From Oscillospiraceae bacterium (GTDB lineage: Bacteria; Bacillota; Clostridia; Oscillospirales; Oscillospiraceae), in NCBI GenBank assembly GCA_017428565.1, contig JAFRQP010000087.1, forward strand, positions 1 to 43,566: a DNA stretch of 43,566 nt, in the 5' to 3' direction. The notes beneath the pieces were generated by a model that worked only from the letters and a program-made list of their open reading frames with translations, did no database searches and was not told where the DNA came from. Shown here piece after piece: positions 22,195 to 39,785 of the stretch; positions within the stretch are counted from its first letter, which is position 1, and each line of letters begins with the position of its first letter. Position numbers and translations under genes: made by a program.

Positions 22195-23009
22195 TTCTGC
22201 TCCTCCCCTCTGATCTCCGCAAGGGCCTCCTGCAGCTGCCTGTCATTTGGCGCGGCTCCGTGCCAGGCGCAGTCCCCCTCCATGAAGGAGACGCCCTTGC
22301 CCTTCACCGTATTGGCAATCAGCACGCTGGGTTTTCCCTTGAAACACTCCGCCAGCCGGTATGCCGCAAGGATCTGCTCCATGTCGTGGCCGTCCAGCTC
22401 GATCACATGCCAGCCAAAAGCCCGGAACTTTGCGCAGAGATCCCCCAGGTCTTTGATCTCCTCCGTCGTCCCGTCCAGCTGGACGTGGTTGTAGTCCACG
22501 ATGGCGCAGAGATTGTCCAACCCGTGCTGGGCCGCGGTCATCACCGCCTCCCAAATCTGGCCCTCCTGCAGCTCCCCGTCTCCCAGCAGACAGAAGACCC
22601 GATTGTCCCTGCCTTGCAGACGAAAACCAAGCGCCAGGCCGTTTGCAATGGATAGCCCCTGACCCAGAGAGCCGCTGGAGCAGTCCAGGCCCGGCGTGCT
22701 CCCCCGGTGGGGATGCCCCTGCAGGATGCTGCCAAGCCGGCGCAGGGTCCACAGTTCTTCCACCGGGAAAAAGCCCTTTCGGGCCAGCACGCTGTACAGC
22801 ACCGGGGCGGCGTGGCCCTTGGAGAGGATAAAACGGTCCCGGCCCTCCCAATCCGGCCGACTGGGATCCACCCGAAGGAAGCCTCCGAAATACAGTCCCA
22901 CCAGCAGATCCGCAGCGGAAAGTGACCCGCCGGGATGGCCCGATCCTGCCCGGTTCACCATGGTCAGAATATCACAGCGGACGGTTCTGCTCATTTCCAG
23001 CAAATTCAT
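22191..23009 (-). CDS. Transketolase, N-terminal subunit
   Basis: The 272-residue thiamine-diphosphate-binding half: GHPGGSLSAADLLVGLYF, FILSKGHAAPVLYSVLA, SSGSLGQGLSIANGLALG, and the TPP/Mg motif GDGELQEGQIWEA followed by DYNHVQLDG. It overlaps both neighbours by 4 bases, so acn, tktN and tktC are probably translated as a coupled unit. The substrate pair is not evident from sequence. Confidence 0.93.
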   Translation of the reverse strand: MNLLEMSRTVRCDILTMVNRAGSGHPGGSLSAADLLVGLYFGGFLRVDPSRPDWEGRDRFILSKGHAAPVLYSVLARKGFFPVEELWTLRRLGSILQGHPHRGSTPGLDCSSGSLGQGLSIANGLALGFRLQGRDNRVFCLLGDGELQEGQIWEAVMTAAQHGLDNLCAIVDYNHVQLDGTTEEIKDLGDLCAKFRAFGWHVIELDGHDMEQILAAYRLAECFKGKPSVLIANTVKGKGVSFMEGDCAWHGAAPNDRQLQEALAEIRGEEQK

Positions 23010-24986: not shown

Positions 24987-25031
24987 AAAACAAAACGTGC
25001 CCGGTCTCCGCTTATGTCGGAGCCAGGCACG
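24987..25031 (-). terminator. Terminator at the end of larA
   Basis: On the minus strand a 14-bp stem with one bulge (25018-25031 with 24996-25010) has a 7-nt loop and a TTTTGTTTT tail. The larA stop codon lies in the loop, so the hairpin overlaps the last larA codons. It probably limits read-through into acn. Confidence 0.85.
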
Positions 25032-26268
25032 GCAGTGTGGAGCCGGCGCAGGGCATGGCAAGCACCCGGGCCTGTCGGCCCAGGTGGGCAAAAGCCGCGT
25101 CCAGCGCAGCCTGGGCGGAGGGCTGGGGCGTCAGAAGCACGGAACGCACCAGGGACTCCTCCATCTCCGAAACCAGGAAAACCTGCGCCTTGCACAGCAC
25201 GCGGGCAATAGCCGCCGCCTTATGGGCGCCAAGCCGGAAGCCCTCTCGCCGGTAGCGTTCCAGAATCTCCTCCGGTGAGGCGGCGCCGGTCATCCATTCC
25301 CGGAAGACCTCTCCGCCCAATCCCTCCCGACAGGAGCCGACGAGGATGATGACACCTCCCTCCCGCACCGCGCGAGAGGCATTGTCCAGCGCTTTCTGGG
25401 TCTGGTACAGGTTCAGATCCTTCGGCGCCCCGCCCTGACTGGCGATGACGATATCCGCGGGCGTTTTCAGCTCCCTGCGGTAAACCAGATCCAAAAAGGC
25501 GCAGAGCCGCCTGTGAGCGGCGATAAGCTCGCCCGCCTCGGCCCGCAGGATCTCCTTGTGCTCGCCCAGCACCACGTTGAGGATGAAATCCACGCCGCAT
25601 ATGGCGGCGGCCTCCTCCAGATCCTGCCGGACAGGATTGGCCGCGAGTTCTCCGGCACATGCGCCGGGAAGGAGCATCCTGCCGTGATTGTTCTCTATGG
25701 CGGAAAGGGTGGAGCAGCCGGGCATGATGGCCTTGGCCCCGCCGGAATAGCCGGCGAAGTAGTGATACTCCACATTGCCCAGGCAGATCCTCCGATTTGC
25801 TTCCGCAACCCGGCGGGTGATATTCACCGGCGTTCCCGCCGCCGTCCTGCCCAGATAAAGGCAGTCGTCAGGATCGCTGTCCGCGCAGCAGATTTCCGCC
25901 CAGGCCCGCTCACCCGCCAGGCGGCGGCGCTCCACATCCGTATGGTGGCGGTGGGTCGCACAGGCGAAGACCAGAGTGATGTCCTCCCGGCGGATCCCCG
26001 CGGCGTACAGCTCGTCCAGCAGCACGGGCATGACCCTGGCGGTAGGCATGGGACGGGTCACGTCGCTTGTCACAATGGCAACGGTCTCCCCCGGGCGCAC
26101 AAGCTCCCGCAGCGGTGGGCTGCCAACAGGCTCCCGCAGGGCGCGGCGCAGCTCCTCCTCTTCGCTGCCGGCGCGCTGCACCGGCGCAGCCCGGAGGACG
26201 CCCATCAGATTTTCCTCCGGCAGCGAAACAGACTGCGTTCCGCTGCCGAAGCCGAATTCCAGGTTCAT
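25012..26268 (-). CDS. larA: LarA-family nickel-pincer 2-hydroxyacid racemase/epimerase
   Basis: The 418-residue protein has TSDVTRPMP (Asp69, Arg72), ATHRHHT (His106), HYFAGYSGGAKAIMPG (His169, Lys179) and ENNHGR (His195). His169, Lys179 and His195 keep a constant offset of five from the Ni-pincer residues of Lactiplantibacillus LarA. The cofactor is attached to the lysine. Homologues racemise lactate, malate, phenyllactate and other 2-hydroxyacids. The cofactor-making genes larB, larC and larE are not in this window. The gene follows rpoN by 4 bases, so it is cotranscribed with it. Confidence 0.88.
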   Translation of the reverse strand: MNLEFGFGSGTQSVSLPEENLMGVLRAAPVQRAGSEEEELRRALREPVGSPPLRELVRPGETVAIVTSDVTRPMPTARVMPVLLDELYAAGIRREDITLVFACATHRHHTDVERRRLAGERAWAEICCADSDPDDCLYLGRTAAGTPVNITRRVAEANRRICLGNVEYHYFAGYSGGAKAIMPGCSTLSAIENNHGRMLLPGACAGELAANPVRQDLEEAAAICGVDFILNVVLGEHKEILRAEAGELIAAHRRLCAFLDLVYRRELKTPADIVIASQGGAPKDLNLYQTQKALDNASRAVREGGVIILVGSCREGLGGEVFREWMTGAASPEEILERYRREGFRLGAHKAAAIARVLCKAQVFLVSEMEESLVRSVLLTPQPSAQAALDAAFAHLGRQARVLAMPCAGSTLPCLAPT

Positions 26269-26272
26269 ACTC

Positions 26273-27646
26273 TTACCCCTTCTGCTTCAGGTGGCCTTCG
26301 GCCCGTTCCCGCCGCGCTGTGGAGCTTGGGATCCCGCAGGATACCCGGTACTGGGCCACTGTGCGCCGGGCGATATAGATCCCCTCGGCGGCTAGCCGCT
26401 CCCGCAGCTTTTCATCGCTGTAGGGTCGGTTCTTGTCCTCCCCTTCCACCAGCTGGCAGATCCGCCGACGGATAGCCTGGGCGGAAATGTCCTGATCGCC
26501 TGTGGAACGGCTGAAGAGCTTTTGGATGGGATAGCTTCCCCGCCAGCACTGGAGAACCTTGCCCCGCAGGGCGCGTGAAACCGTGGACACGTGCAGATCC
26601 AGCCGCTCTGCCAGAAGAGAGAGGGTCATGGGCGCCAAATCCTCCCGGGTGCCCAGGAAGAAGGGCCGCTGCAGCTCCAGAATAGTCTCCACACAGCGCC
26701 GCAGGGTGTTTCCCCGGCGAGCCAGACTGTCCATCAGCCACTTGGCCTGCTGGATCTTCTTCTGCAGATAAGCGTGGACCTCCTCGTCCTCGCTGCTCTC
26801 ATAAAGCTGCGCATAGGTCCGGTTCAGAGAGAGACGGGGCAGAAAATAGTCGTTGACGAGCACCTGCAGATTCTCTCCCTCTCGCAGCACCAGCACATCC
26901 GGCCGGACATACTGGACCGGCTCACGCCCGGCAAAGCTGCGGCAGGGCTTGGGATCCAGAGACGCGATCACCCGCGCCGCCTGCTCCACCTCCGCCTCGG
27001 AAACGCGAAGGCTGTGGGCAATGGCGCGATAGCGTCGCTCGCCCAGAGCGCTCAAATGCTCCCGGCAGATCCGCTCTGCCAGGGGCTGGGACGGCCTCCT
27101 GCGCTGCAGCTGCAGCAGCAGACACTCCGCCAGGCTCCTGGCGCCCACGCCTGCAGGCTCCAGGCTCTGAAGCGTCTCCACCGCCGTCTCCAGCAGATCT
27201 CCTGGGATCCTGCGGTCCAGCAGGTCCTCCAGATCCTCCGGATCCAGGTAGCCGTTCTCGTCCAGCAGCCGGCAAAGATACTCCGTCAGCGCCTCCAGCG
27301 GCCGGGGAAGGTGAAGCCGCTGCAGCTGATCCCGCAGGAAGAAGAACAGGCTCTCCAGCTCCTGGGGCAGCGCGCCGGGCTCCTGGGCCGGGTCCACCGC
27401 CGCCAGAGACGCGCCGGGGCTCACCGCCCGGCTGTCCAGCCAGCGGAAGCGCTGCAGAAGCTCCGCCGCTTCCTTTTCCCGCCGGGCGGAATCCTCCGCC
27501 TCCAGCACTGGATTCTCCTCCAGGCTGCGGTTGAGAAAATCCTGCAGCTCCTCTGCGTTCATCTGCAGGACGGAGAGCGACTGCAGCATCTCCGGCGTCA
27601 GGTGCAGTTCCTGCCGCAGCTGTTGTTCCAGATGAAAGAAATCCAT
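26273..27646 (-). CDS. rpoN: RNA polymerase sigma-54 factor
   Basis: The 457-residue protein has an N-terminal Gln-rich activator-interacting region (LEQQLRQELHLTPEMLQSL), an acidic middle, the core-binding domain, and the C-terminal RpoN box ARRTVAQYR. I start at ATG 27646, with AAAGGAGG upstream. Sigma-54 needs an AAA+ activator, and one is encoded 1.4 kb away across prpF. Five sigma-54-type promoters lie within the next 10 kb. Having rpoN inside a catabolic cluster, cotranscribed with larA, is unusual, since it is generally a global gene. Confidence 0.95.
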   Translation of the reverse strand: MDFFHLEQQLRQELHLTPEMLQSLSVLQMNAEELQDFLNRSLEENPVLEAEDSARREKEAAELLQRFRWLDSRAVSPGASLAAVDPAQEPGALPQELESLFFFLRDQLQRLHLPRPLEALTEYLCRLLDENGYLDPEDLEDLLDRRIPGDLLETAVETLQSLEPAGVGARSLAECLLLQLQRRRPSQPLAERICREHLSALGERRYRAIAHSLRVSEAEVEQAARVIASLDPKPCRSFAGREPVQYVRPDVLVLREGENLQVLVNDYFLPRLSLNRTYAQLYESSEDEEVHAYLQKKIQQAKWLMDSLARRGNTLRRCVETILELQRPFFLGTREDLAPMTLSLLAERLDLHVSTVSRALRGKVLQCWRGSYPIQKLFSRSTGDQDISAQAIRRRICQLVEGEDKNRPYSDEKLRERLAAEGIYIARRTVAQYRVSCGIPSSTARRERAEGHLKQKG

Positions 27647-27689
27647 TCGCTCTCCTCCTTTCAAGCAGGGGCTGCCTGCGTTTTTCTCT

Positions 27690-27725: not shown

Positions 27726-28883
27726 TTACAGCCTGTCGTTCTTCACGTAGCAGATGCCGTCCATGATCCGGCGTGAGGTGCGCTCATAGGCAAGAGACGC
27801 AAAGCGCGTCCCCTCCGGATCCTCGGCGCGGGCGTCCACGGTGATGATGCCGCCGGGATGGCCGATGCGCAGCACGCCCCGTTCCCGGGCCTCGGGAGAG
27901 AGAAGCTTGTACACCAGAGTGCCGGGGATCCTGGCCGCGGCGCCGGTGCAGACCGTACCGGTGCCGGGATAAGTCTTGTGCATGTGGAGCATGAAGCTGA
28001 GGCGGCTCACAAGATCCACCTGCTCCGCCCGGACGGTGCTGCCGTCGTTTGCCACCAGATAATCGGCGCTGGGACTCACGATGGCGAAGAAGGGCACGTA
28101 GGCGCTCTTCTCCGTGGCCTCCCGCAAGGTGGCGGCCATGCCGATCTTCACGGTACAGGTGGCGCGGATGGCCTCGATCTTGTCGGTCAGAGCCTTGTCG
28201 GCCTCGATCTCGGAGCAGGTCTCCGTCCCGCGCAGGCCCAGGCTGGAAGCCTCGATGAAAACCAGGACGTTGCCCGCATCCACGATGGAGACCTCGAAAT
28301 CGCCGTAGCCCTCCACGTGGACCAGATCCGTGGGATTTCCGGTGGGAAGAAGCTTGCCGGTGGTGGAGCCCACGGTATTGTGGAAGTCCAGCAGGATCCG
28401 GGCGCCGGTGCCGGGAACCCCGGCGATGCGGCAGTCCCCCATGGCGGCGGCCTTGCCGTCCTTCACCGGCACGTCGGCATAGAGGATGCAGTTGGTGTTC
28501 ACCTGGTGGATGCGCACCCGGGTCACAGGCTCCACCGCGGCCACAAGGCCCTCGTCAATGGCAAAAGGGCCCACGCCGGCGGAAATGTTGCCGCAGTTTC
28601 CGCCGTAGTCGATCAGCTCCGTGTCGAAGCTGACCTGGGCGAAGGTATAGTCTACATCCGCCCCATCGCAGCTCGGCGGGCCGATGATGGCAAGCTTGCT
28701 GGTGAGTACATCCGCGCCGCCCAGGCCATCGATCTCCCGACGGTCGGGGGTTCCGAATATACCCCGGATCACCCTTGCCCGGGCCTCCGGATCCTTGGGA
28801 AGTTCGTTCTCCTTGATGAAAATGCCCTTGCTGGTGCCGCCGCGCTGAATGACCACGCGGTAGGGCGTCATATCTGAATACAT
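27726..28883 (-). CDS. PrpF-family isomerase (2-methylaconitate / methylitaconate isomerase type)
   Basis: The 385-residue protein has RGGTSKGIF near the N-terminus, Lys63 in LTSKLAIIG and Cys97 in GGNCGN, corresponding to the catalytic pair of PrpF. It belongs to the diaminopimelate-epimerase fold. Related enzymes move a double bond next to carboxylates: PrpF (2-methyl-trans- to cis-aconitate) and Mii of Eubacterium barkeri (3-methylitaconate to 2,3-dimethylmaleate). In this context itaconate/citraconate isomerisation is plausible, but the substrate is not proven. A sigma-54 promoter lies about 80 bases upstream. It is divergent from the activator gene. Confidence 0.88.
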   Translation of the reverse strand: MYSDMTPYRVVIQRGGTSKGIFIKENELPKDPEARARVIRGIFGTPDRREIDGLGGADVLTSKLAIIGPPSCDGADVDYTFAQVSFDTELIDYGGNCGNISAGVGPFAIDEGLVAAVEPVTRVRIHQVNTNCILYADVPVKDGKAAAMGDCRIAGVPGTGARILLDFHNTVGSTTGKLLPTGNPTDLVHVEGYGDFEVSIVDAGNVLVFIEASSLGLRGTETCSEIEADKALTDKIEAIRATCTVKIGMAATLREATEKSAYVPFFAIVSPSADYLVANDGSTVRAEQVDLVSRLSFMLHMHKTYPGTGTVCTGAAARIPGTLVYKLLSPEARERGVLRIGHPGGIITVDARAEDPEGTRFASLAYERTSRRIMDGICYVKNDRL

Positions 28884-28961
28884 AGGATCATCCTTTCCTT
28901 GCCGGGGAAGCCCGCTTCCCCCCCATAATGGCCGCTGAAACAGGCGGCACTATTCTTTCTT

Positions 28962-28979
28962 AAGCAAAATTTATGCCAA
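28962..28979 (-). promoter_or_regulatory. Sigma-54 promoter of the PrpF-family gene
   Basis: On the minus strand TTGGCATAAATTTTGCTT matches the sigma-54 consensus TTGGCAyr-N4-TTGCw. GG and GC are separated by exactly 10 bases. The start should be near 28952. Confidence 0.9.
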
Positions 28980-29020
28980 CTTTATTTTTCAGAGATGGCC
29001 GGAAGCTGGTTTTCCGCCGC

Positions 29021-29047
29021 TGTTTCATGTTATACTGAATTGAAACA
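29021..29047. promoter_or_regulatory. Candidate activator site (TGTTTCA-N13-TGAAACA)
   Basis: A perfect inverted repeat lies about 80 bases upstream of the predicted sigma-54 start for prpF, a normal enhancer distance. It encloses TATACT (29031-29036), which could be the -10 of the activator gene itself, so binding could also repress the activator's own transcription. Confidence 0.6.
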
Positions 29048-29067
29048 CAGGAAGGGAGGCCGGGACC

Positions 29068-31023
29068 ATGCAGAACCGAAGCACCAGAAGCAGCCTGTCC
29101 GTCAGCGAACCCATGACCGTCGCCATCATCGCCACCTACCCCAAGCTCTCCAGCATGCTGAAGAACCTGGTGAAGGGGACGAACATCACCATCATCGACA
29201 TTTACGCTTCCTTTGACGATGCCGTGCAGGAAGCCCGCCGCATCGCCGACAAGGTGGACATCATCATCAGCAAGGGCGGCACCGGCAAGTATATCAAGGA
29301 CAATGTGCCCATTCCCGTCGTGCTGGTTCCCATCTCCCCTTTCGACCTGCTCTCCACCCTGCGGACGCTGCCGGAGAAAAGCGGCAAGGTGGCTTTTGTC
29401 AACTACCAGCGGCCGATTTTCGAGACGGAGCAGGTGGCCGCCATCTGCGGCCGGGAGATCGTGCAGTACCAGTTTCACAACCACCAGGATCTGGAACAGC
29501 TGGCCGCCCAGGTCAAGGCTGACGGCTGCACCGTCTACGTAGGCGGCGCGGAGGGCGTGAAAAACGCCGCGCTGGTGGATCTGCCGGCAGTGGAAATCGA
29601 GATCGGCGAGGAGAGCGCCTACCGCGTCATGCAGGAGGCGGTGGACGTGATCCAGAACGCACGGGAAGAGAAAAAACGCGCCCTGCGCCTGCGCCGCGCC
29701 TTCGACGCCCTGGCGGAAGGCATCTGCGTGGCGGACGAGGAGGGCAAGATTTCGGTGTTCAACCCCGCGCTTGCCCGCATGTTCGGCATGAGCCGCCGCA
29801 GTCTGGTGGGACAGAGCATTTACGACACCCCGGTGGGAAGCTCCGCCATCCGATCCTTCGACCGCTTCGACAAGCGCACCGACCAGCTGGAGCAGGTGCG
29901 GGACATCACCGTGAACGCAAACCACATCCCCATCTATCTGAATCGGGAATTTATCGGCACCGTCAGCACCTATCAGGACGTGAGCCGCATCCAGCTGCTG
30001 GAGGGGCAGATCCGCCGTCAGCTGAGCCAGAAGGGCTTCGTGGCCAAATACAGCTTTGACGATATCCTGGGCACCTCCCCCGGGCTGATACGCGCCAAAA
30101 CCCTGGCCGGGCTCTACGCCCGCACCACCGCCCCCGTGCTGTTGGAGGGAGAATCGGGCACCGGCAAGGAGCTTTTCGCCCACAGCATCCATAACGCCAG
30201 CAAATATGCCTCCGGCCCCTTCGTCACCGTCAACTGCGCCGCCATCCCCGAGCAGCTGCTGGAAAGCGAGCTTTTCGGCTACGCCCCGGGAGCCTTCACC
30301 GGAGCGCGTAAGGAGGGCAAGCCCGGCCTGTTTGAGCTGGCCCACAACGGCACCATCTTCCTGGACGAGATCGGAGAAATGCCCAAATACCTGCAGTCCC
30401 GGCTGCTGCGGGTCCTGCAGGAGAAAGAGATCATGCGGGTGGGCGACAACAAGATCACCTCCGTAAACTGCCGCATCATCAGCGCCACCAACAAAAATCT
30501 CCTGCGCATGGTACAGCAGGACGAGTTCCGGCAGGATCTGTACTACCGGCTCAGCGTCTTCACGGTGGAGATCCCTCCCCTGCGGGAGCGGGGCGAGGAT
30601 CTCACATTGCTCTGCAGGCATTTTCTGGGGCGTGATTTTGAGAAGACACTCTCCCCGGAGCGGCGGGAGGAGCTGCAGCGGGAGCTGTGCCGGATGGCCT
30701 GTCACGATTGGCCCGGCAACATTCGGGAGCTCAAAAGCTATTGCGACAGGCTTTCCCTGATCCTCAGTCTGCAGGAGGATGAGCTCTCCCCGGAGCTGCT
30801 GCGAAGCGAGAGCCATTCCGACCGGGAAAGCGAGACGATCCGCTTCTGCCTGCCGGCAGATATGAGTCTGCGCCAGATGCACGATCAGGCAGAGGCGCTG
30901 TATATCGACGCGATCCTGGCCCGCTGCGGCAACAACCACAGCGAAGCCGCCCGGCAGCTGGGCATCGGCCGCACCACCCTCTGGCGCAGGCTGGAGGAGC
31001 GGAAAGATGGAAAGGAAGAATAG
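29068..31023 (+). CDS. PrpR-type sigma-54-dependent transcriptional activator
   Basis: The 651-residue protein has an N-terminal PrpR_N-like sensor (about 16-190, starting [13 protein letters not shown] and with [11 protein letters not shown]), a PAS domain (about 205-310), a AAA+ domain with Walker A GESGTGKE (361-368), the sigma-54-contacting GAFTGA loop (408-413) and Walker B FLDEIGEM, and a Fis-type helix-turn-helix at the end. PrpR_N in enteric bacteria responds to 2-methylcitrate, and the family senses tricarboxylic or branched acids. The sensed ligand here is unknown. It is divergent from prpF and close to rpoN; it is the obvious activator of the five sigma-54 promoters. Confidence 0.93.
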
Positions 31024-31035
31024 GCAGCCAAGCGC

Positions 31036-31080
31036 AAAAGCACCGTCCGACAGAGCTGTGAACTGTCGGGCGGTGCTTTT
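31036..31080. terminator. Bidirectional terminator
   Basis: An 18-bp stem with one wobble pair (31036-31053 with 31063-31080) has A- and T-runs. It lies between the convergent activator and metallo-hydrolase genes. Confidence 0.9.
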
Positions 31081-31091
31081 ACGCGTTTTCC

Positions 31092-31862
31092 TTATTTATA
31101 TGGGTATACGCTGTGCTCCAGAACGGAGGCGTCGTGTCCGGCCAAAATATGGGCCTGATCCGCCAGCGGGTAGAGTCTGCGAATGGTCTCGTAGTATTCC
31201 AGCAGGTTCACATGGATGCCGGAGGGCGTGGGGAGACCCCAGGTCTGCTTGTCCTCCCAGGCTTCCGTGATGCCGGTACTGTCGCTGGTAATGAGATAGC
31301 GGCCGTCGGTGGTGTTTACATAGACGCACTGGAAGCCAGGCGTATGTCCCGGAGAGAGCAGCAGGTCGATCCCATCGCAGAGGGCGTAATCTCCGTCGAT
31401 GATTTCCATGCGTTCCACGCCGTCCAGCCAGGAGGGGCGCAGGCCGATCTGAGGAGACTCATAATAGGTGTACTGGGTGGGGATGGGGCAGAGCGCGAAC
31501 TGGATCTCCCGCTTCTGCACATAGATCTTCGCGTTGGGGAAGCAGCCGTTGCTCCAACAGTGATCCCAGTGCAGATGCGTGTTGACGATGATCTGCACAT
31601 CCTCCGGCTCCACGCCCAGCTTGCGCAGCGCGTTCACGGGGATCATGTCCTCCGTCTGGACGATACGGTGATGATGCTTCGCCGCCCATTCCTCGCCGCT
31701 GCCGCCGGTGTCTACCAGCATGCAAAGACCGTTCCCCTGCACCAGATACATGAGGATGGGCGCTTTGAGCTTGACTCCGGGGTCCTTCTGATATGCGAAA
31801 TTGGATTTCTCCGCGCCTTGGAACACGCCGGCGCAGATGGGCGTAATGGTATAGGTTTGCAT
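31092..31862 (-). CDS. Metallo-beta-lactamase-fold hydrolase, AHL-lactonase-like
   Basis: The 256-residue protein has the metal motif THLHWDH (His96, His98, Asp100, His101), His173 in SPGHTPGF, Asp194 and His243. This is the AiiA-like lactonase layout, which opens lactone rings. The natural substrate is unlikely to be a signal molecule here. It is under a sigma-54 promoter shared with the operon to the right, so it probably hydrolyses a pathway lactone or thioester. A GAGGAGG site sets the start. Its C-terminus is complete. Confidence 0.85.
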   Translation of the reverse strand: MQTYTITPICAGVFQGAEKSNFAYQKDPGVKLKAPILMYLVQGNGLCMLVDTGGSGEEWAAKHHHRIVQTEDMIPVNALRKLGVEPEDVQIIVNTHLHWDHCWSNGCFPNAKIYVQKREIQFALCPIPTQYTYYESPQIGLRPSWLDGVERMEIIDGDYALCDGIDLLLSPGHTPGFQCVYVNTTDGRYLITSDSTGITEAWEDKQTWGLPTPSGIHVNLLEYYETIRRLYPLADQAHILAGHDASVLEHSVYPYK

Positions 31863-31909
31863 GGCTTTACCTCCTCATAGATGATGTGCCGGTTCTAATA
31901 TCTGTATTT

Positions 31910-31927
31910 AAGCAAAAAAGATGCCAG
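31910..31927 (-). promoter_or_regulatory. Sigma-54 promoter of the metallo-hydrolase gene
   Basis: On the minus strand CTGGCATCTTTTTTGCTT: GG and GC 10 bases apart, the standard consensus. Confidence 0.9.
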
Positions 31928-31959
31928 TTGGGAAGAGAAACATCATTTTTCTTTCCAAC

Positions 31960-31977
31960 TTGGCATCTTTTTTGCTT
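31960..31977 (+). promoter_or_regulatory. Sigma-54 promoter of the scaffold-GGGtGRT-CoA transferase-lyase operon
   Basis: TTGGCATCTTTTTTGCTT with GG at 31962-31963 and GC at 31974-31975. The start should be near 31987, a leader of about 60 bases. Confidence 0.9.
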
Positions 31978-32048
31978 GCCTGAACAGGCAGAAGCGAGGC
32001 CACAGCCCAACCATCGCCCGCCTACCATATTCGATAAGGAGAAAATGT

Positions 32049-32741
32049 ATGGAGAAAACGCGTTCTTTGGAGGATATGTACCCCGTGCGCGCCTGCTGCC
32101 CCAACGGGATGTCACCCATCCCCCAGGAGGGCAGCTACGACGAGGTCAAGGAGGTCACCCAGGTCTCCGGCTTTAGTCACGGCGTCGCCACCTGCGCCAT
32201 GAAGCAGGGCGGCTGCAAGCTGACCCTGAATGTAAAAAACGGGATCATCCAGGAAGCACTGGTAGAGACCGTGGGCTGCTCCGGCATGACCCACTCCGCC
32301 TCCATGGCAAGCGAGATCCTGCCCGGCAAGACCATACTGGAGGCCATCAACACGGACCTGGTGTGCGACGCCATCAATGTTGCCATGCGTGAGATCTTCC
32401 TGAACCTGTGCTACGGCCGCTCCCAATCCGCCTTCACCAAGGGGGGTCTCGCCGTGGGCTCCGGCATTGAGGATCTGGGCGCCGGCACCTGCAGCCAGGT
32501 CGGTACGGCCTACGGTTCTGTGGACAAAGGGCCCCGATACCTGAATCTCACAGAAGGCTATGTGCAGAAGCTGGCCCTGGATGAGGAAGACCGCATCATC
32601 GGCTACCGTTTCGTGCACATCGGCCGGATGATGCGGTATATCGCCGACGGCATGAGCGCCCAGGAGGCGCTGGACAAGGCCAGTGGCACCTACGGGCGAT
32701 ACCAGGAGGCAGTCAGGCTCATCGACCCCCGCAGAGAATGA
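32049..32741 (+). CDS. IscU/NifU-like iron-sulfur scaffold protein (GGGtGRT-associated)
   Basis: The 230-residue protein has an IscU-like core with GCSGMTHSASMASEILPGKT-type sequence (Cys77), and further cysteines at 16, 17, 49, 56, 106 and 121. It is longer than IscU and has extra N- and C-terminal parts. No other Fe-S assembly gene lies nearby. NCBI describes similar proteins next to GGGtGRT proteins; their role is unknown. It is the first gene of a four-gene operon under sigma-54, 12 bases before the next gene. It might hold or deliver a cluster for the LeuC-type dehydratase, but that is speculation. Confidence 0.8.
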   Translation: MEKTRSLEDMYPVRACCPNGMSPIPQEGSYDEVKEVTQVSGFSHGVATCAMKQGGCKLTLNVKNGIIQEALVETVGCSGMTHSASMASEILPGKTILEAINTDLVCDAINVAMREIFLNLCYGRSQSAFTKGGLAVGSGIEDLGAGTCSQVGTAYGSVDKGPRYLNLTEGYVQKLALDEEDRIIGYRFVHIGRMMRYIADGMSAQEALDKASGTYGRYQEAVRLIDPRRE

Positions 32742-32753
32742 GGAGGACGCAGC

Positions 32754-33767
32754 ATGAAGATCCAATTTGAAAACTACGAGCTGAAGATCGGCAAGATTCT
32801 GGCCTTCCTGCAGGAGAACGGCATTGCATCCCTGGAGGAGGCTGAACAGCTCTGCCGGGACGCGGGACTGGACGTTTACGCTACCGTCAAGGGCATCCAG
32901 CCCATCTGCTTTGAGGACGCGCCCTGGGCCTACATCGTGGGTGCGGCGGCTGCCATTCGTCGGGGCGACAGCGACCCCAGCGTGATCGCAAACACCCTGG
33001 GCGAGGGACTGCAGGCCTTTTGCCTGGACGGCAGCGTTGCCCAGCAGCGGCAGATCGGCCTTGGCCACGGAGCGCTGGCGGCCCGGGTCCTTCACGAGGA
33101 CACCCGCTGCTTCTGTTTTCTGGCCGGACACGAGAGCTTTGCCGCCGCCGAAGGAGCGGTGGGCATCGCCCTCAACGCAAACCGGGTGCGCAAGACCCCC
33201 ATGCGGGTCGTGCTCAACGGTCTGGGCAAGGATGCTGCGGACATCATCGCCCGCATCAACGGCTTCACCTATGTGAAGACCCGCTTCGATTTTGAGAACG
33301 ACCGTCTTGAGCTGGTTTCGGAGCGGCGCTATTCCTCCGGCCCCCGGGGAGAGATCCGCTGCTACGGCGCAAACGAGATGCGGGAGGGCGTTGCCATCAT
33401 GGTTCATGAACAGGTTGACGTGTCCATCACCGGCAACGCCACCAATATGATCAAGTTCCAGCATCCCGTCTCCGGCACCTACAAGAAATACTGCAACGAC
33501 CACGGCCGCAGCTATTTTGCCTGCGCCTCCGGCGGCGGCATCGGACGCACCCTGAACGTGGACGACATCTCCGCCGGCCCCGCCAGCTACGGCTACACCG
33601 ACATGATGAGCCGTATGTACGCCGACGCCACCTTCGCCGGCTCCTCCAGCGTGCCGGCCCACGTAGAGATGATGGGCTTCATCGGCATGGGCAACAATCC
33701 CATGGTGGGCGCCACGGTTGCGGTGGCGGTGCAGCTTTCTCAGGCATTGAAGAATGCCGCAAAATGA
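32754..33767 (+). CDS. GGGtGRT family protein
   Basis: The 337-residue protein contains GGGIGRT at residues 260-266, the motif that names this uncharacterised family. It also has a conserved WAYIVGAAAAIRRG stretch, GHESFAAAEGAVGIALNANR, and VPAHVEMMGFIGMGNNPM. No signal peptide is visible; it is soluble or peripheral. It is always found with the scaffold-like partner, to my knowledge. Its reaction is not known. The neighbours suggest it acts in branched-acid catabolism. GAGGAGG lies 9 bases upstream of the start. Confidence 0.8.
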   Translation: MKIQFENYELKIGKILAFLQENGIASLEEAEQLCRDAGLDVYATVKGIQPICFEDAPWAYIVGAAAAIRRGDSDPSVIANTLGEGLQAFCLDGSVAQQRQIGLGHGALAARVLHEDTRCFCFLAGHESFAAAEGAVGIALNANRVRKTPMRVVLNGLGKDAADIIARINGFTYVKTRFDFENDRLELVSERRYSSGPRGEIRCYGANEMREGVAIMVHEQVDVSITGNATNMIKFQHPVSGTYKKYCNDHGRSYFACASGGGIGRTLNVDDISAGPASYGYTDMMSRMYADATFAGSSSVPAHVEMMGFIGMGNNPMVGATVAVAVQLSQALKNAAK

Positions 33768-33789
33768 TTTGAAATAAGAGGAGAGAAAC

Positions 33790-34983
33790 ATGGAAAAAGG
33801 TTTGCTGGAGGGCGTGATCGTCCTGGATCTGGGCAGAGTTCTGGCCTGCCCTTACTGCGGAATGCTGCTGGCGGACATGGGAGCGACCGTCATCAAGGTG
33901 GAAAACCCCAAGGGCGGCGACGACACCCGTAAAATGGGACCCTTCATCAACGACAACAGCGTGTACTTTGCAAACTTCAACCGGAGCAAGCTGGGCGTCA
34001 GCCTGAATCTGAAGGATCCCAAAGCCAAAGAGCTGTTCCTGGACATGGTGAAGAAGGCGGACGTGGTCATCGAAAACTACCGCCCCGGCACCATGGAAAA
34101 GCTGGGTCTGGGCTATGAAACGCTCCGGGAGGTCAACCCCGGCATCATCTACGGCTCCGTCTCCGGCTTTGGTCACACCGGGCCTCTGAGCCGCAGGGCA
34201 GGCTATGACATCGTTGGTCAGGCCATGGGCGGGCTGATGAGCACCACCGGCTGGCCCGACGGGCCCGCAACCCGATCCGGCACTCCGCTGGGGGACGTGC
34301 TGGGCGGTCTGAACCTGGCCGTGGGCGTCCTGGCGGCGCTGGTGAACAAGCAGCGCACCGGCCTCGGCGAAAAGGTGGACGTGGCGCTGGTGGACTCCGT
34401 CGCCTCCGCCATGGAAAACATCACCATGATCTACCAGGCCACGGGCCGCGTCCCGCAGCGGATCGGCAACCGCTACGAATCCACCTATCCCTATGACTCC
34501 TTCCCCGCCCTGGACGGGGACGTGATCGTCGCGGCGGGCAACAACAAGCTCTTCGGCATTCTCTGCGACGTGATGGGCAAGCCCGAGCTGAAGACCGACC
34601 CCCGCTTTGCGGAGGTGAAGGATCGGGTGGCGAATCACGAGCAGGTGCGGGAGCTGGTCTCCGCCTGGACGAAGAGCCATACCATTGAGGAGGTGGACCG
34701 GCTGCTCAACAGCGCAGGCTGCCCCGCAAGCCCCGTAAATACCATCGACCGCATGGTGAAAGACCCCCAGATCGCCGGTGCCCGGGGCATGTTCCCTGAG
34801 ATCGACCAGCCCGGCATCGGGAAGCTGGCCGTCACTGCCACCGCGCAGAAGCTGACGCGCACCAAGTCCTGCCCCCGGAAGCCCGCGCCGGGTCTGGGAG
34901 AGGACAACGAGAGAATCTACGGTCAGTGGCTTGGCCGGAGCGAAGAAGAGCTGAAGGAGCTGAAGGCCTGCGGCGCGATTTGA
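33790..34983 (+). CDS. Class III CoA-transferase (CaiB/BaiF family)
   Basis: The 397-residue protein moves CoA between carboxylic acids. Asp169 in RSGTPLGDVLGG matches the catalytic aspartate (169) of formyl-CoA transferase. Other family motifs are VLDLGRVLACPYCGMLLADMG-like N-terminal sequence, NRSKLGVSLNL, and IENYRPGTMEKLG. In Chloroflexus a class III enzyme makes (R)-citramalyl-CoA from succinyl-CoA, then cleaved by an HMG-CoA-lyase-like enzyme. The next gene here encodes such a lyase, so citramalate (or a homologue) is the favoured substrate. This is inference from context. Confidence 0.92.
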   Translation: MEKGLLEGVIVLDLGRVLACPYCGMLLADMGATVIKVENPKGGDDTRKMGPFINDNSVYFANFNRSKLGVSLNLKDPKAKELFLDMVKKADVVIENYRPGTMEKLGLGYETLREVNPGIIYGSVSGFGHTGPLSRRAGYDIVGQAMGGLMSTTGWPDGPATRSGTPLGDVLGGLNLAVGVLAALVNKQRTGLGEKVDVALVDSVASAMENITMIYQATGRVPQRIGNRYESTYPYDSFPALDGDVIVAAGNNKLFGILCDVMGKPELKTDPRFAEVKDRVANHEQVRELVSAWTKSHTIEEVDRLLNSAGCPASPVNTIDRMVKDPQIAGARGMFPEIDQPGIGKLAVTATAQKLTRTKSCPRKPAPGLGEDNERIYGQWLGRSEEELKELKACGAI

Positions 34984-34995
34984 GGAGGCGAGCAC

Positions 34996-35901
34996 ATGAA
35001 AAAAGTTACCATCGTAGAGGTGGGACCCCGGGACGGGTTCCAGAGCGTGAGCTGCATGCAGATCCCGACGGAGGAAAAGATCGCCATCATCGACCGTCTG
35101 GCCGAGGCCGGCGTGCAGCACATGGAGATCACCTCCTTCGTCAGTCCCAAGGCCATCCCCCAGATGTCTGACGCCGCCGCCGTGGCGGAATACGCGTTGA
35201 AGAAATACCCGGACCGGGACTATTTCGCTCTGGTCCCCAATCTCCGCGGGGCTGCAAACGCCTACGCCCTGGGACTGCGGAAGGTCTGCTATGTGGTATC
35301 CCTCAGCACCAGCCACAACAAGGCCAATATCAACCGGACCCACGAGCAGTCTCTGGCCGCCTTCCGGGAGATCCGGGAAACTTACCCCGATCTGCAGCTG
35401 GACGTGGATCTGGCCACGACCTTCGGCTGCCCCTTTGAGGGGAAATACCTGGATCCGCAGCAGCCTGTGGAGTTTCTGCGGCCCTACTGGGAGGCGGGCA
35501 TGCGCTCCGTGACCCTGTGCGACACCATCGGCATCGCGGATCCCGCGCAGGTGCGCCGGGTGCTCTGCGCCGTGAAGGAAGCCTACCCGGAGCTTGCGGT
35601 TCAGGTACACTTCCACGACACCCGCGGTCTCGGCATGGTAAACACCCTGACCGCTCTGGAGATCGGCGTAGACGGTGTGCAGACCGCCCTGGGCGGCCTG
35701 GGCGGCTGCCCCTTCGCCCCCGGGGCCTCCGGCAACCTGTCCACCGAGGACACGGTGTGGATGCTCAACGAGATGGGCTATGATACCGGCATCCGCTTCG
35801 CGCCGCTGCTGGCCGCCGCCAAAGCGCAGAAAGAGGCCGTCCCCGGCAATTACAGCGGTCACCATATCTGCGTGGAGAAGGAGACCCCCTGCCAGTTCTG
35901 A
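34996..35901 (+). CDS. HMG-CoA lyase-family enzyme, probable citramalyl-CoA lyase
   Basis: The 301-residue TIM-barrel lyase has EVGPRDGFQ (Arg12, Asp13, Gln16), the metal ligands His205 and His207 in VHFHDTRG, and Cys238 in GGLGGCPFAPGASGN. These are the catalytic features of HMG-CoA lyase, which cleaves 3-hydroxy-3-methylglutaryl-CoA. (R)-citramalyl-CoA lyase belongs to the same family and yields acetyl-CoA and pyruvate. The upstream CoA transferase makes the second reading more likely. HMG-CoA itself remains possible. The gene ends the sigma-54 operon at a strong terminator. Confidence 0.88.
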   Translation: MKKVTIVEVGPRDGFQSVSCMQIPTEEKIAIIDRLAEAGVQHMEITSFVSPKAIPQMSDAAAVAEYALKKYPDRDYFALVPNLRGAANAYALGLRKVCYVVSLSTSHNKANINRTHEQSLAAFREIRETYPDLQLDVDLATTFGCPFEGKYLDPQQPVEFLRPYWEAGMRSVTLCDTIGIADPAQVRRVLCAVKEAYPELAVQVHFHDTRGLGMVNTLTALEIGVDGVQTALGGLGGCPFAPGASGNLSTEDTVWMLNEMGYDTGIRFAPLLAAAKAQKEAVPGNYSGHHICVEKETPCQF

Positions 35902-35920
35902 GGACTGTTTCACGCCGATT

Positions 35921-35973
35921 CAAAATGAAACACCACCTGTTTCCTCTTCGGAAACAGGTGGTGTTTCATTTTG
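35921..35973. terminator. Strong bidirectional terminator
   Basis: A perfect stem of about 24 bp (caaaatgaaacaccacctg... with its complement) has a short loop. It separates the convergent lyase and LeuD-type genes. Confidence 0.9.
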
Positions 35974-36039
35974 CTTGATGCCCCCCGCGCGAACGGGTAA
36001 AATAGGGACGGAGGGAAATGGGGCAAAGCGAGACCTTTT

Positions 36040-36534
36040 TCAGTCCTTGCCCAGCTTCTTCCGCAGGGATTCCACCAGGCCGCCGCAGTTCACCAGCTCC
36101 AGGATGTGGGGCGGGATTCTGTCACAGCGGTAGGTCTCCCCGGTACTCAGATTATGCAGCAGCCCCTCCTCCGTGTCCAGAGAAAGCCGGTCAAAGCGGG
36201 AAATGCGATTCGTGTCCGGGCACTCCACCGCCAGGATCCCCAGGTTGATGCAGTTGCGGTAAAAAATCCGGGCATAGGACCGGGCGATAATAGTGCGGAT
36301 GCCCAGCGCCTTCAGCGTCAAGGGCGCGGTTTCCCGGCTGGAGCCGGAGCCCAGGTTGTTCTCCGCCACGAAAATGTCCCCCGGACGCACCGTGGAGGCA
36401 AAACTCTCGTCCACGGGGCTCATGGCCATCTTCGCCGCCTGCTCGATGGGCAGTTCCATGTAGGCCGGAGGCGAGATGATATCGGTATTGATGTTGTCGC
36501 CGTATTTCAGGGCTCTTCCTTCGATCAAAGACAT
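36040..36534 (-). CDS. LeuD-type small subunit of an aconitase-family hydro-lyase
   Basis: The 164-residue swivel-domain protein has NNLGSGSSRETAPL and ARSYARIFYRN, both typical of LeuD. The substrate-specificity loop reads NTDIISPPAYMEL, unlike the usual D-x-I-I-P-A-R-Y-L of isopropylmalate isomerases, so a different acid is likely. DmdB of the nicotinate pathway (dimethylmalate) is the nearest functional analogue by context. It pairs with the large subunit encoded just upstream with a 12-base gap. Confidence 0.9.
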   Translation of the reverse strand: MSLIEGRALKYGDNINTDIISPPAYMELPIEQAAKMAMSPVDESFASTVRPGDIFVAENNLGSGSSRETAPLTLKALGIRTIIARSYARIFYRNCINLGILAVECPDTNRISRFDRLSLDTEEGLLHNLSTGETYRCDRIPPHILELVNCGGLVESLRKKLGKD

Positions 36535-36546
36535 GGCTGTTCCTCC

Positions 36547-37806
36547 TTATAAGAATTCCCGGGGATCCGTGAGGCGCCCGGTGACGGCTGAGGCCGCCAC
36601 CGATAGAGGCGAGGCCAGATAAACCTGCCCGCGCTTGCTGCCCATGCGGCCGATAAAATTGCGGTTGGTAGAGGATACGCAGACCTCCCCCGCTCCGATG
36701 GCGCCGGAATGGACGCCCAGGCACGCGCCGCAACTGGAACCCAGGATGACGGCGCCGGCCTCAACCAGCGCGGAGAGGATGCCGGCCCTGTCGCAGGCGA
36801 GCCAGACCTCCCGGGAGGCCGGGGAAACGAGAAGGCGCACGCCCTTGGCAACCTTTTTCCCTTTCAGCAGCTCCGCCGCCGCCTGCAGATCATGGAAGCG
36901 GCCGCCGGTACAGGAGCCGATATAGGCCTGGTGGATGGGCGTGACGGGCAGCTCCTCCAGAGGCCGGACATTGTCCACCTCGTGAGGGCAGGCGGCCAGG
37001 GGCTTGAGCTCCCCGGCGCTGAAGCAGTAATCCGCGTAGTATTCCGCGTCGGGATCGCTTTGGAAGCGTTCTCCCTGGGGGATCCCCTTCTCCCTCAGAT
37101 AGGCAGAGGTCACCTCATCACAGGCGATGACGCCGTTTTTCGCCCCCGCCTCCACCGCCATGTTGGCGATGCAGAGCCGCTCGTCCATGGGCAGGCGCTC
37201 CACGGTGCCGCCGCAGTACTCCAGCGCCCGATAGGTGGCTCCGTTGTGTCCGATGCGGCCGATGCTGCAGAGTGCCATGTCCTTTGCCATCACGCCCCGG
37301 GGCAGCTCCCCCTCGAAGCGGACGCGGATGCTCTGGGGAACCTTCAGCCAAATCTCCCCTGTTGCCAGCACGCCCAGCATCTCCGTCGAGCCGATGCCTG
37401 TAGAAAAGGCACCAAGAGCGCCGTAAGTGCAGGTATGGGAATCGGTGCCCACCACCAGCTCACCCGGCAGCACGCGCCCCTTCTCCACCATGACCTGGTG
37501 GCAGGGGCCCGCAAATTCATAGTAGTGCTCCACCCCGTTCGACGCAGACCACTCCCGGGTAAATTTCACGATTTCCGCCTGGGTGGCATTGGCCGGGGGC
37601 GTATAGTGATCCGAAATCACCGTCACCCGCTCCGGGTCCCAGATCCGGCAGCCCAGCTTCTCCAACTGCTCCGCGATCTGGATCCGCGGGCCTAGAATAT
37701 CATCCATCATCGCCTTGTCCACCCTGGCCTGTATAATCTCGCCGGCGTGGACCTCCTGTTTCCCGGCAGCCAGGGCCAGGAGCTTTTCGCTGATCGTCAT
37801 GGACAT
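36547..37806 (-). CDS. LeuC-type large subunit of an aconitase-family hydro-lyase
   Basis: The 419-residue protein carries the [4Fe-4S] ligands Cys299 (GSCTGG), Cys359 and Cys362 (SSCGACLG), and the TDSHTCTYGALG substrate loop. It belongs to the LeuC/HacA/DmdA group. LeuCD enzymes can hydrate citraconate to (R)-citramalate, and DmdAB hydrates dimethylmaleate, so either acid fits. It should work with the small subunit encoded downstream. It is under a sigma-54 promoter; GAGGAGG precedes the start. It should not be read as leucine biosynthesis, since leuA and leuB are absent here. Confidence 0.9.
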   Translation of the reverse strand: MSMTISEKLLALAAGKQEVHAGEIIQARVDKAMMDDILGPRIQIAEQLEKLGCRIWDPERVTVISDHYTPPANATQAEIVKFTREWSASNGVEHYYEFAGPCHQVMVEKGRVLPGELVVGTDSHTCTYGALGAFSTGIGSTEMLGVLATGEIWLKVPQSIRVRFEGELPRGVMAKDMALCSIGRIGHNGATYRALEYCGGTVERLPMDERLCIANMAVEAGAKNGVIACDEVTSAYLREKGIPQGERFQSDPDAEYYADYCFSAGELKPLAACPHEVDNVRPLEELPVTPIHQAYIGSCTGGRFHDLQAAAELLKGKKVAKGVRLLVSPASREVWLACDRAGILSALVEAGAVILGSSCGACLGVHSGAIGAGEVCVSSTNRNFIGRMGSKRGQVYLASPLSVAASAVTGRLTDPREFL

Positions 37807-37860: not shown

Positions 37861-37878
37861 AAGCAAAAATTGTGCCAC
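37861..37878 (-). promoter_or_regulatory. Sigma-54 promoter of the LeuCD-type operon
   Basis: On the minus strand GTGGCACAATTTTTGCTT, close to the full consensus (TGGCAC-N5-TTGC). GG and GC are 10 bases apart. Confidence 0.92.
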
Positions 37879-37933: not shown

Positions 37934-37951
37934 TTGGCATAAAACTTGCTT
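37934..37951 (+). promoter_or_regulatory. Sigma-54 promoter of the symporter operon
   Basis: TTGGCATAAAACTTGCTT, with GG at 37936-37937 and GC at 37948-37949, 10 bases apart. It is divergent from the LeuCD promoter with 55 bases between them. Confidence 0.9.
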
Positions 37952-38273: not shown

Positions 38274-39785
38274 ATGGGTACTACTTACGGAATCGTTGTA
38301 TTTGTTGTCCTCGCGCTGTTCACGGCCTTCGAGCTTTACGTCGGCCTTGGCATCGGCTACGATAAGAAGGTCGTCTCTTCCTCCCGCGGCTTCTTCATCG
38401 GCGGCGGTACCGGCTTCTTCATCCTGTTCTTCACCACCGCGGCCACCTGGTTCTCCACCTGGCTCTACATGGGCGCTCCCGGCTCCTTCTATAAAAACGG
38501 TATCGGCTGGATCGCCGGCGCTGCCTGGCAGCTGCTGATCGTTTTCCTGATGGGCAACTGGGGTCCCAAGGTGTGGCGTCTGGGCAGAGACCACCAGCTC
38601 ATTACCCCCTCCGACATGCTGGAAGGCTACTACGGCGGCAAGGCCATTCGCCCCGTGCACGCCACCGGCGAGCTGATCTTCTGCTTCCCCACCCTGATGG
38701 CGCAGATCGCCGGCTGCGGCGTTGCGCTGGACGCGCTGACCCGCGGCGTGATCCCCATGTGGGCCGGCTGCATCTACGCGGCTGCCGTTGTGGGCATCTA
38801 CGTGTACTTCGGCGGCTTCCGCTCTCAGGCCTGGGTGGATACCATGCAGGGCATCCTCTTCTCCGTCATCATGTGGGTCACCGTCATCATCATGGTCAAG
38901 AACTCCGGCCAGGCCGGCCTCACAGGCTTCTTTGCCGAGCTGGAGCGCACCGGCTCCGACCTGCTGCGCTACGTCACCAAGCCCGACGGCCTGAATAACG
39001 GCTACTGGACCTGGAAGATGTACCTCTCCTTCTGGATCATCCAGGCGCTGGGCGGCTTCTGCGCCCCCTATGTGTTCCAGCGCAGCTACGCGGCCAAGGA
39101 CGGCAAGACTGTCCGCCGCATCGCGGGCCTGCTGGGCGCCTACTACGTGTTCATCCTGATGGCCGCCGTCATGCTGATCGGCTTCGGCGGACACGTCCTG
39201 GGCATCGAGACCGCCAATGCCGACAACATCATGGTCGTCGCCATGAACAAGTACGCTCCCTACTGGGCCATCTTCGTTGTCATCGGCATCCTCTGCGCCG
39301 GCATGTCCACCGTCTCCTCCATCCTGGTGTCTGCCACCTCCATCGTCTCCGTGGACTACGGTCGCTCCATCAAAAAGGACATCAGCGACGAGTCCATCCG
39401 CAAGATCTCCAAGATCGCCATCCTGGGCATGCTGGTTCTGGCCGTCATCCTCTCCATCGTGGGCTACAGCAGCATCGCCATCCTCATCAACACCGCCCTC
39501 GCCGGCTTCGCGCAGTCCTTCTGGGCGATCTTCGGCATGTTCGTGTGGCGCAAGCACGCCACCAAGGAGGGCGCTGTGTCCGGCCTGGTCGTGGGTCTGG
39601 TCATCACCCTGGTGCTGACCGCCATGAGCAAGAATCTGCTGGGCTTCGCCCCCGGCTTCTGGGGCGTCGTCTGCAACGGCATCGTCTTCTTCGTGGTCTC
39701 CCTGCTCACCAAGCCTGTGGATCCCGCTCACGCGGAAGAGTTCCTCTCTCCGCTGGTGAAGCACTCCGTCCGCAACAGGACCTGA
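38274..39785 (+). CDS. Sodium:solute symporter family transporter
   Basis: The 503-residue protein has about 13 hydrophobic helices and SSS-family features: GGGTGFFILFFTTAATWFS near the N-terminus, a long central GFFAELERTG loop, and CAGMSTVSSILVSATSIVSVD in the sodium-binding region. It should couple inward Na+ flow to import of a carboxylate, and its placement in the sigma-54 regulon suggests it carries the pathway substrate. The substrate cannot be told from sequence. It follows its small partner and precedes the flavoprotein gene. Confidence 0.9.
   Translation: MGTTYGIVVFVVLALFTAFELYVGLGIGYDKKVVSSSRGFFIGGGTGFFILFFTTAATWFSTWLYMGAPGSFYKNGIGWIAGAAWQLLIVFLMGNWGPKVWRLGRDHQLITPSDMLEGYYGGKAIRPVHATGELIFCFPTLMAQIAGCGVALDALTRGVIPMWAGCIYAAAVVGIYVYFGGFRSQAWVDTMQGILFSVIMWVTVIIMVKNSGQAGLTGFFAELERTGSDLLRYVTKPDGLNNGYWTWKMYLSFWIIQALGGFCAPYVFQRSYAAKDGKTVRRIAGLLGAYYVFILMAAVMLIGFGGHVLGIETANADNIMVVAMNKYAPYWAIFVVIGILCAGMSTVSSILVSATSIVSVDYGRSIKKDISDESIRKISKIAILGMLVLAVILSIVGYSSIAILINTALAGFAQSFWAIFGMFVWRKHATKEGAVSGLVVGLVITLVLTAMSKNLLGFAPGFWGVVCNGIVFFVVSLLTKPVDPAHAEEFLSPLVKHSVRNRT

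Follow-up and report, generated by a model that had tools for sequence, protein, structure and literature searches.

A putative sigma-54/PrpR-controlled regulon with a branched-dicarboxylate core, possibly acting on itaconate or citraconate, in an Oscillospiraceae bacterium

The lower pathway of nicotinate fermentation in Eubacterium barkeri comprises Mgm, Mii, DmdAB and Dml, and Chloroflexus has a succinyl-coenzyme A (CoA):D-citramalate CoA-transferase together with an (R)-citramalyl-CoA lyase, although we know of no PrpF/LeuCD feeding step or sigma-54 regulon in the Chloroflexus system. Here we analyse a gene cluster related to these systems, which lies in a 43,566-nucleotide contig of an Oscillospiraceae bacterium (JAFRQP010000087.1, assembly GCA_017428565.1; the whole contig is referred to as the window) and whose core consists of a PrpF/Mii-type isomerase, a LeuCD/DmdAB-type hydro-lyase, a class III CoA-transferase (CaiB) and an HMG-CoA-lyase-type enzyme (HMGL). 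Two further systems are relevant. The Ict-Ich-Ccl route of Pseudomonas and Yersinia is described as attaching CoA first, after which a CitE-type lyase cleaves (S)-citramalyl-CoA (PMC12290011, PMC6689899); according to PMC9875883, the cloned P. aeruginosa cluster gives P. putida no use of (R)-citramalate or citraconate. The PrpF of the methylcitrate cycle is described as working on methylaconitate together with an aconitase (PMC5690661).

The module in the window resembles the nicotinate pathway in its succession of a PrpF/Mii-type isomerase, a LeuCD/DmdAB-type hydro-lyase and a cleavage to pyruvate, but it lacks a B12 mutase, a MutL-like gene and Hgd, CoA attachment and HMGL replace Dml, and its PrpF and LeuC fall in clades of their own. 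As in Ict-Ich-Ccl, the proposed route would turn a branched C5 dicarboxylate by way of citramalyl-CoA into acetyl-CoA and pyruvate; however, hydration would come before CoA, yielding the (R) series. A class III transferase and an HMGL-family lyase are also what Chloroflexus uses on (R)-citramalate, and a PrpF protein with a PrpR-type sigma-54 activator recalls the AcnD/PrpF version of the methylcitrate cycle, whose PrpF (S. oneidensis) has Lys265 where the window protein has Phe265. No description of the module's gene order was found in the titles and abstract openings of the open-licence literature on itaconate, citraconate and PrpR.

We read the locus as one sigma-54/PrpR-controlled catabolic regulon with a branched-dicarboxylate core and with itaconate and citraconate as the likeliest substrates, a reading that, taken whole, we consider evenly balanced. 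A sequence-only reading of this DNA had placed the four core enzyme types at 27726-37806, and all are indeed present there, as judged from Pfam/NCBIfam matches and motifs (Table 1). The best solved relative of PrpF, a member of the PrpF/Mii delta-isomerase family, is the 3-methylitaconate isomerase of E. barkeri, Mii (3g7k, 1.3e-123), and its Lys63 and Cys97 align with Lys62 and Cys96 of Mii, whose role we assume; together with Ser18 and His302 we take them to be catalytic. The hydro-lyase has two subunits and three cluster cysteines (LeuC Cys299, 359 and 362, presumably catalytic), which are conserved in 17/17 rows of the window's group and 18/18 nicotinate rows, and the nearest solved relative of LeuC is an isopropylmalate/citramalate isomerase large subunit (4nqy, 4kp1). 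CaiB belongs to the class III CoA-transferases (PF02515); it is close to the NCBIfam models for succinyl-CoA:mesaconate and glutarate transferases, yet under their substrate-specific cut-offs, and its nearest solved structures are YfdE, formyl-CoA transferase and succinate--hydroxymethylglutarate CoA-transferase. HMGL scores 270.9 bits on NCBIfam PRK05692 (cut-off 246), has HMG-CoA lyases as its closest solved relatives and carries the R/D, HxH and Cys motifs of this type (GPRDG, HFHDT and GGCP), which we take to be catalytic.

PrpF matches at E <= 1e-30 occurred in 1/393 further genomes of the order (2/394 including the genome of the window), while a phylum-level survey gave matches in 27/398 genomes and two further orders, at 1e-95, in 7/22 and 11/25. 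For most, not all, PrpF matches the surrounding sequence was inspected over up to 20 kb, with genes named by best BLAST hit, and eight loci came from named genomes (loci, genomes and contigs carry L, G and C numbers). The PrpF tree (52 rows) places the window in a 19-row branch with 99% SH-aLRT support, corresponding to 18 distinct loci since the L009 and L090 rows are identical, and apart from 19 nicotinate-type rows, which lie on one side of a branch (89%). Within these 18 loci LeuC was found in 16, LeuD in 15, and CaiB and HMGL in 11 each; a CoA ligase and a Dml-like protein occurred once each and methyleneglutarate mutase (MgM) never. All 19 nicotinate loci, which have MgM by definition of the group, carry Dml, Hgd, MutL and a 471-aa gene, and none carries CaiB or HMGL. 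PrpF, LeuCD, the class III CoA-transferase and HMGL thus form a recurring unit, beyond chance, because other genomes also carry the set and because its gene groups are preceded by five sigma-54 sites. The L006 stretch has CaiB, with HMGL elsewhere in the genome, and those of L046 and L089 are cut off by the ends of short contigs.

The end of the module differs between loci. A SucCD-like ADP-forming ligase pair stands in CaiB's place in L049, between LeuCD and HMGL, and the L088 stretch contains neither CaiB nor HMGL but a relative of dimethylmalate lyase (Dml). This gene, which has its own sigma-54 site, adjoins a leuC-leuD-prpF run that also has one; its product is 66% identical to a copy in L050 and is placed in the tree beside the nicotinate Dmls (93%). 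Of the PrpF matches listed for the genome of L088 (G804), the remaining two are of the Lys265 type and none is of the nicotinate type, MgM not having been searched for in this genome. The three ends (CaiB-HMGL, ligase-HMGL and Dml-like) fit a single job, the splitting of an (R)-malate derivative.

We infer each core reaction, and the C5 substrate, from sequence. The core would take a branched unsaturated dicarboxylic acid, in which PrpF would move the double bond from the methylene-succinate to the methyl-maleate type; the [4Fe-4S] LeuCD would hydrate the product to an (R)-malate derivative, the class III transferase would put CoA on it, and HMGL would split the ester into pyruvate and an acyl-CoA. 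For the likeliest substrate set, this would lead from itaconate through citraconate, (R)-citramalate and (R)-citramalyl-CoA to acetyl-CoA and pyruvate. We hold the order of steps, isomerisation, hydration, CoA attachment and cleavage, to be probable, because the conserved module does not include the nicotinate genes and because a ligase can replace the transferase, and a Dml-like enzyme both transferase and lyase; itaconate or citraconate as the acid is a tentative assignment, falling slightly short of an even chance. The geometry is compatible: two groups trade ranks when CH2COOH is replaced by COOH, so that (S)-HMG-CoA has the spatial arrangement of (R)-citramalyl-CoA and, by our own derivation, a lyase of the (S)-HMG-CoA type matches the latter. 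The literature ties LeuCD-type enzymes and citraconase to D-(R)-citramalate, the two lyase types are described in PMC6689899, isopropylmalate dehydratase is described as interconverting citramalate and citraconate (PMC5882075), and some activity of Mii on itaconate is mentioned in PMC4720413. The whole chain can therefore run consistently in the (R) series, whereas the known route is of the (S) series. The sequence-only reading had proposed such an itaconate route: its order of steps gained support from the conserved module, the exchangeable ends and the geometry, whereas the identity of the acid is less certain, a C6 substrate being kept open by L088.

The window holds five exact TGGCAY-N5-TTGCW sites against 0.12 expected, a number reached in 0/100 shuffles, and every one of them stands before a cluster gene set on the correct strand; this pattern was picked, from the standard consensus, after a two-mismatch scan of the window that gave no enrichment (15 found, 22.7 expected). 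Two of the sites fall inside a 93-aa open reading frame (ORF) overlapping the gap between leuC and the symporter gene, which we took as spurious. The rpoN gene lies 4 bases from larA and 61 from prpF, in a run (prpF-rpoN-larA-acn-tkN-tkC) with gaps of -4 to 61 bases. Given these -24/-12 sites, the PrpR-type activator and RpoN, all predicted from sequence, positions 21253-41842 are best read as one PrpR/RpoN regulon. No activator site common to three promoter regions emerged when these were compared for shared 9-mers and inverted repeats. The span of 27726-37806 given earlier is thus too narrow for the gene set with shared promoters, and the regulon-wide sigma-54 promoters, malate racemase, aconitase, transketolase, transporter and reductase had been overlooked; the earlier interpretation as a whole is partly supported.

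As to the substrate, the PrpFs of the window type differ from the nicotinate isomerases and E. barkeri Mii by fixed changes at two positions, A262Y and M265F (18/18 versus 16/16), and by a nearly fixed one, Q299L (18/18 versus 15/16; counts without the duplicates L051 and L090). With Tyr262, Phe265 and Leu299 in place of Ala, Met and Gln, and with a clade of its own, the window protein falls outside Mii in the strict sense. Lysine occupies position 265 in 12/16 other PrpFs, and for seven of the 12 the stretch also holds an aconitase; S. oneidensis PrpF likewise has Lys there. Co-variation with gene context suggests that positions 262 and 265 line the substrate pocket, and bulkier side chains at the Ala and Met positions of Mii would go well with a substrate that lacks the additional methyl group, that is, itaconate. 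Furthermore, LeuD has a YME motif in 16/16 module rows, compared with GYAM in 13 and YLNT in four nicotinate rows, and LeuC forms a clade of 17 rows apart from the nicotinate enzymes (100% SH-aLRT). The strongest HpcH_HpaI match of the assembly (on C86) is citE beside citF, i.e. citrate lyase, and is the only strong one; no CitE-type lyase of the Ict-Ich-Ccl kind was thus seen, three weaker matches (one above the cut-off) having been left aside and Ich not searched for. The sequence evidence from PrpF and LeuD leans towards a C5 substrate over dimethylmaleate or a tricarboxylate. The same genome has a second PrpF (L044, C75:1857-5159), 41% identical and with Lys265, which adjoins an aconitase in a 759-aa frame; the two are probably an aconitate-type isomerase/hydratase pair.

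Several observations weigh against itaconate or citraconate as the substrate of a regulon of this kind. For E. barkeri Mii, itaconate is reported to be the poorer substrate, with a rate about 1000-fold below that on methylitaconate. Only half of the loci in the window's PrpF clade (9/18) have exact sigma-54 sites, in the stretches of L048, L061 and L062 this type of PrpF is accompanied by neither CaiB nor a CoA ligase nor HMGL, and the module lyases do not form one clade in the HMGL tree, so that HMGL is no evidence on the substrate. Transketolase, aconitase and malate racemase get no role from itaconate, and much of the regulon is left without explanation by the route. Finally, the Dml relative of L088 beside the same PrpF/LeuCD type would fit dimethylmalate, which keeps a C6 acid in play.

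The alternative that survives best, although we consider it somewhat unlikely, is that another substituted maleate is made from a larger compound by further regulon enzymes (transketolase, AcnX, dehydrogenases, lactonase, reductase), the core being the lower end of a longer pathway. Sigma-54 sites link larA, acn, tkN/tkC, the metallo-beta-lactamase-fold (MBL) hydrolase, the sodium:solute symporter (SSS) and the OYE-family oxidoreductase to the core, and in L008 (11145-17923) and L045 (10356-17440) the core is followed by AcnX, a 3-hydroxyisobutyrate-dehydrogenase-like enzyme, a split transketolase and zinc alcohol dehydrogenases, which as a side reading may represent such a pathway. Nevertheless, the core occurs in L007 and L012 without these enzymes in the stretch fetched, and can therefore serve an imported acid directly.

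Unlikely, too, is the use of the same module on C6 compounds, from (R)-3-methylitaconate through 2,3-dimethylmaleate, (2R,3S)-2,3-dimethylmalate and its CoA ester to propionyl-CoA and pyruvate, which would be the lower pathway of nicotinate fermentation ending in CoA-linked steps. Besides the L088 arrangement, this would agree with Mii being the closest solved protein to PrpF, with the 53-58% identity of PrpF to those of nicotinate clusters and, by our own derivation, with a C2 stereochemistry equal to that of (R)-citramalate. It is opposed by the differences of PrpF and LeuCD at specificity positions and by the distribution of MgM, which is absent from all 18 clade loci and gave no match in the window's own assembly, an absence that is provisional at 83.7% completeness; among 13 genomes searched some match was seen in 10, of full length in just G593 (the source of the query) and G789 and limited to the B12-binding end in the remainder. 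Moreover, clusters of the nicotinate type and of the window type coexist in each of the genomes G810 and G815, and the latter type should therefore do something else.

A tricarboxylate route, from trans-aconitate through cis-aconitate to (iso)citrate and then by citryl-CoA to acetyl-CoA and oxaloacetate, is very improbable. PrpF relatives are described as isomerising aconitate or methylaconitate (PMC4720413, PMC5690661). There is an aconitase within the regulon, and L048 and L049 have TctA-type transporters. The Lys265 of aconitase-linked PrpFs, including the one on C75, is however Phe in the window protein, LeuD is without the YLR motif, whose Arg we presume to have a role, and citE/citF make a CoA-transferase/HMGL route from citrate unneeded. 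We give equally little credence to a LeuCD of leucine/isoleucine biosynthesis, or to leucine/HMG breakdown, beside unrelated genes: such roles are common in the LeuCD and HMG-CoA lyase families, HMGL exceeds the HMG-CoA lyase subfamily cut-off and CaiB has succinate--hydroxymethylglutarate CoA-transferase among its closest solved structures, but the module LeuC is a separate clade with PrpF as its constant neighbour, the only two HMGL-like proteins of the window's own assembly (83.7% complete) include no LeuA, and two complete genomes, G786 and G336, yielded none to an HMGL query, weaker than a LeuA model, that did pick up LeuA-sized proteins in G740, G604, G804 and G815.

The remaining members of the regulon are more variable among the 18 clade loci: the MBL and OYE-family proteins occur in seven each, the NifU-like and GGGtGRT proteins in six each, SSS in five, AcnX in four and transketolase in three. 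The tkC gene overlaps the next gene by 4 bases, and its homologues adjoin the module in L008 and L045; the aconitase has a homologue with 62% identity in the L011 cluster. The MBL hydrolase scores 100.6 bits on the AiiA model, under the cut-off of 375. The small ORF, a probable partner of the symporter, has a counterpart of 77 aa in the equivalent position in L005. A NifU-like/GGGtGRT pair (32049-33767) sits within a catabolic regulon; GGGtGRT is the single match in its assembly, and as its AlphaFold2 model was of low confidence (six sequences, mean pLDDT 67.9) and gave no Foldseek match in the PDB at E <= 0.001, no enzyme role is assignable. One may guess that this pair serves the Fe-S enzymes and that electrons are disposed of through the flavin reductase. 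Terminator-like sites were no more numerous in the region than expected by chance.

Related arrangements were seen elsewhere. About 20 kb from the L009 cluster, a paralogous run of CaiB, HMGL, LeuC and LeuD precedes an isocitrate/isopropylmalate-dehydrogenase-like gene. The same order occurs in L136 (7887-12937, G789:C22), where CaiB has a sigma-54 site ahead of it and PrpF is missing; this may be a sister pathway. CaiB-HMGL pairs also occur in L138 and L141. MmgE/PrpD protein pairs are joined to the module in L010 (3086-5937), L091 and L088, those of L010 having iminodisuccinate epimerase and cis-aconitate decarboxylases as nearest solved structures. Another cluster, L137 (complete genome G786, C1:2125000-2144999), combines a PrpR-type regulator with genes for an aconitase, for Iso_dh, LarA-like and LeuC-like proteins and for a TRAP transporter.

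Table 1 Predicted features of the regulon, by position in the window.
Feature	Position	Strand	Basis or remark
tkC, split transketolase C-terminal component	21253..22194	-	PF02779, PF02780; last gene of run
tkN, split transketolase N-terminal component	22191..23009	-	PF00456; best solved relative split-chain transketolase 6yak
acn, aconitate hydratase, 650 aa	23006..24958	-	NCBIfam PRK07229, 750 bits (cut-off 612)
larA, nickel-dependent malate racemase, LarAH6 family	25012..26268	-	NCBIfam NF052593, 513.5 bits (cut-off 500)
rpoN, RNA polymerase sigma-54 factor	26273..27664	-	PF04963, PF04552, PF00309
prpF, PrpF/Mii-type allylic (delta) isomerase	27726..28883	-	PF04303, 7.1e-114; proposed first core step
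Sigma-54 promoter site	28963..28978	-	TGGCATAAATTTTGCT; 80 nt ahead of prpF
PrpR-type sigma-54 activator	29068..31023	+	PrpR_N, PAS, AAA+, HTH_8; GAFTGA at residue 408
MBL-fold hydrolase, lactonase-like	31092..31862	-	PF00753; HLHWDH motif
Sigma-54 promoter site	31911..31926	-	49 nt ahead of MBL gene
Sigma-54 promoter site	31961..31976	+	73 nt ahead of nifU-like-GGGtGRT-caiB-hmgL
NifU/IscU-like protein	32049..32741	+	PF01592, weak (4.3e-5)
GGGtGRT protein	32754..33767	+	PF14057, 4.8e-163
caiB, class III CoA-transferase (CaiB/BaiF)	33790..34983	+	PF02515, 4.7e-128; proposed CoA attachment
hmgL, HMG-CoA-lyase-type lyase	34996..35901	+	PF00682, 5.6e-38; proposed cleavage of (R)-malyl-CoA derivative
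Long terminator-like hairpin, 20 pairs	35925..35969	+	Between convergent hmgL and leuD; longest stem of 11
leuD, LeuD-type small subunit of hydro-lyase	36040..36534	-	PF00694; TIGR02087 above cut-off; motif NTDIISPPAYME
leuC, LeuC-type large subunit	36547..37806	-	PF00330, 3.2e-92; three cluster cysteines
Sigma-54 promoter site	37862..37877	-	TGGCACAATTTTTGCT; 56 nt ahead of leuC
Sigma-54 promoter site	37935..37950	+	~75 nt ahead of small ORF of transporter operon
Small ORF, 77 aa	38026..38259	+	Read from sequence; no Pfam match
SSS, PanF-like	38274..39785	+	PF00474; under PanF cut-off
OYE-family flavin oxidoreductase, BaiCD/enoate-reductase-like, 650 aa	39890..41842	+	PF00724, PF07992; no NCBIfam cut-off reached

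The regulon is a variant built from known enzyme families and not categorically new. Itaconate is reported to rise in mouse bile on enteric infection and to occur in the intestinal lumen (PMC11602723), itaconate and methylsuccinate are described, after Little et al., as abundant in healthy human faeces (PMC12290011), and reduction to methylsuccinate is the only anaerobic fate of itaconate named there. It is possible, although we put it at clearly less than even, that gut-type anaerobic Clostridia ferment itaconate or citraconate via (R)-citramalyl-CoA under a PrpR/sigma-54 switch, without reduction to methylsuccinate. If so, the gut flora would be a sink for itaconate, an immune signal made by immune cells, and the old 'citraconase' activity would be linked to genes. 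Even with another acid, this would be a coherent module with three exchangeable ends, marked by its promoters and residues.

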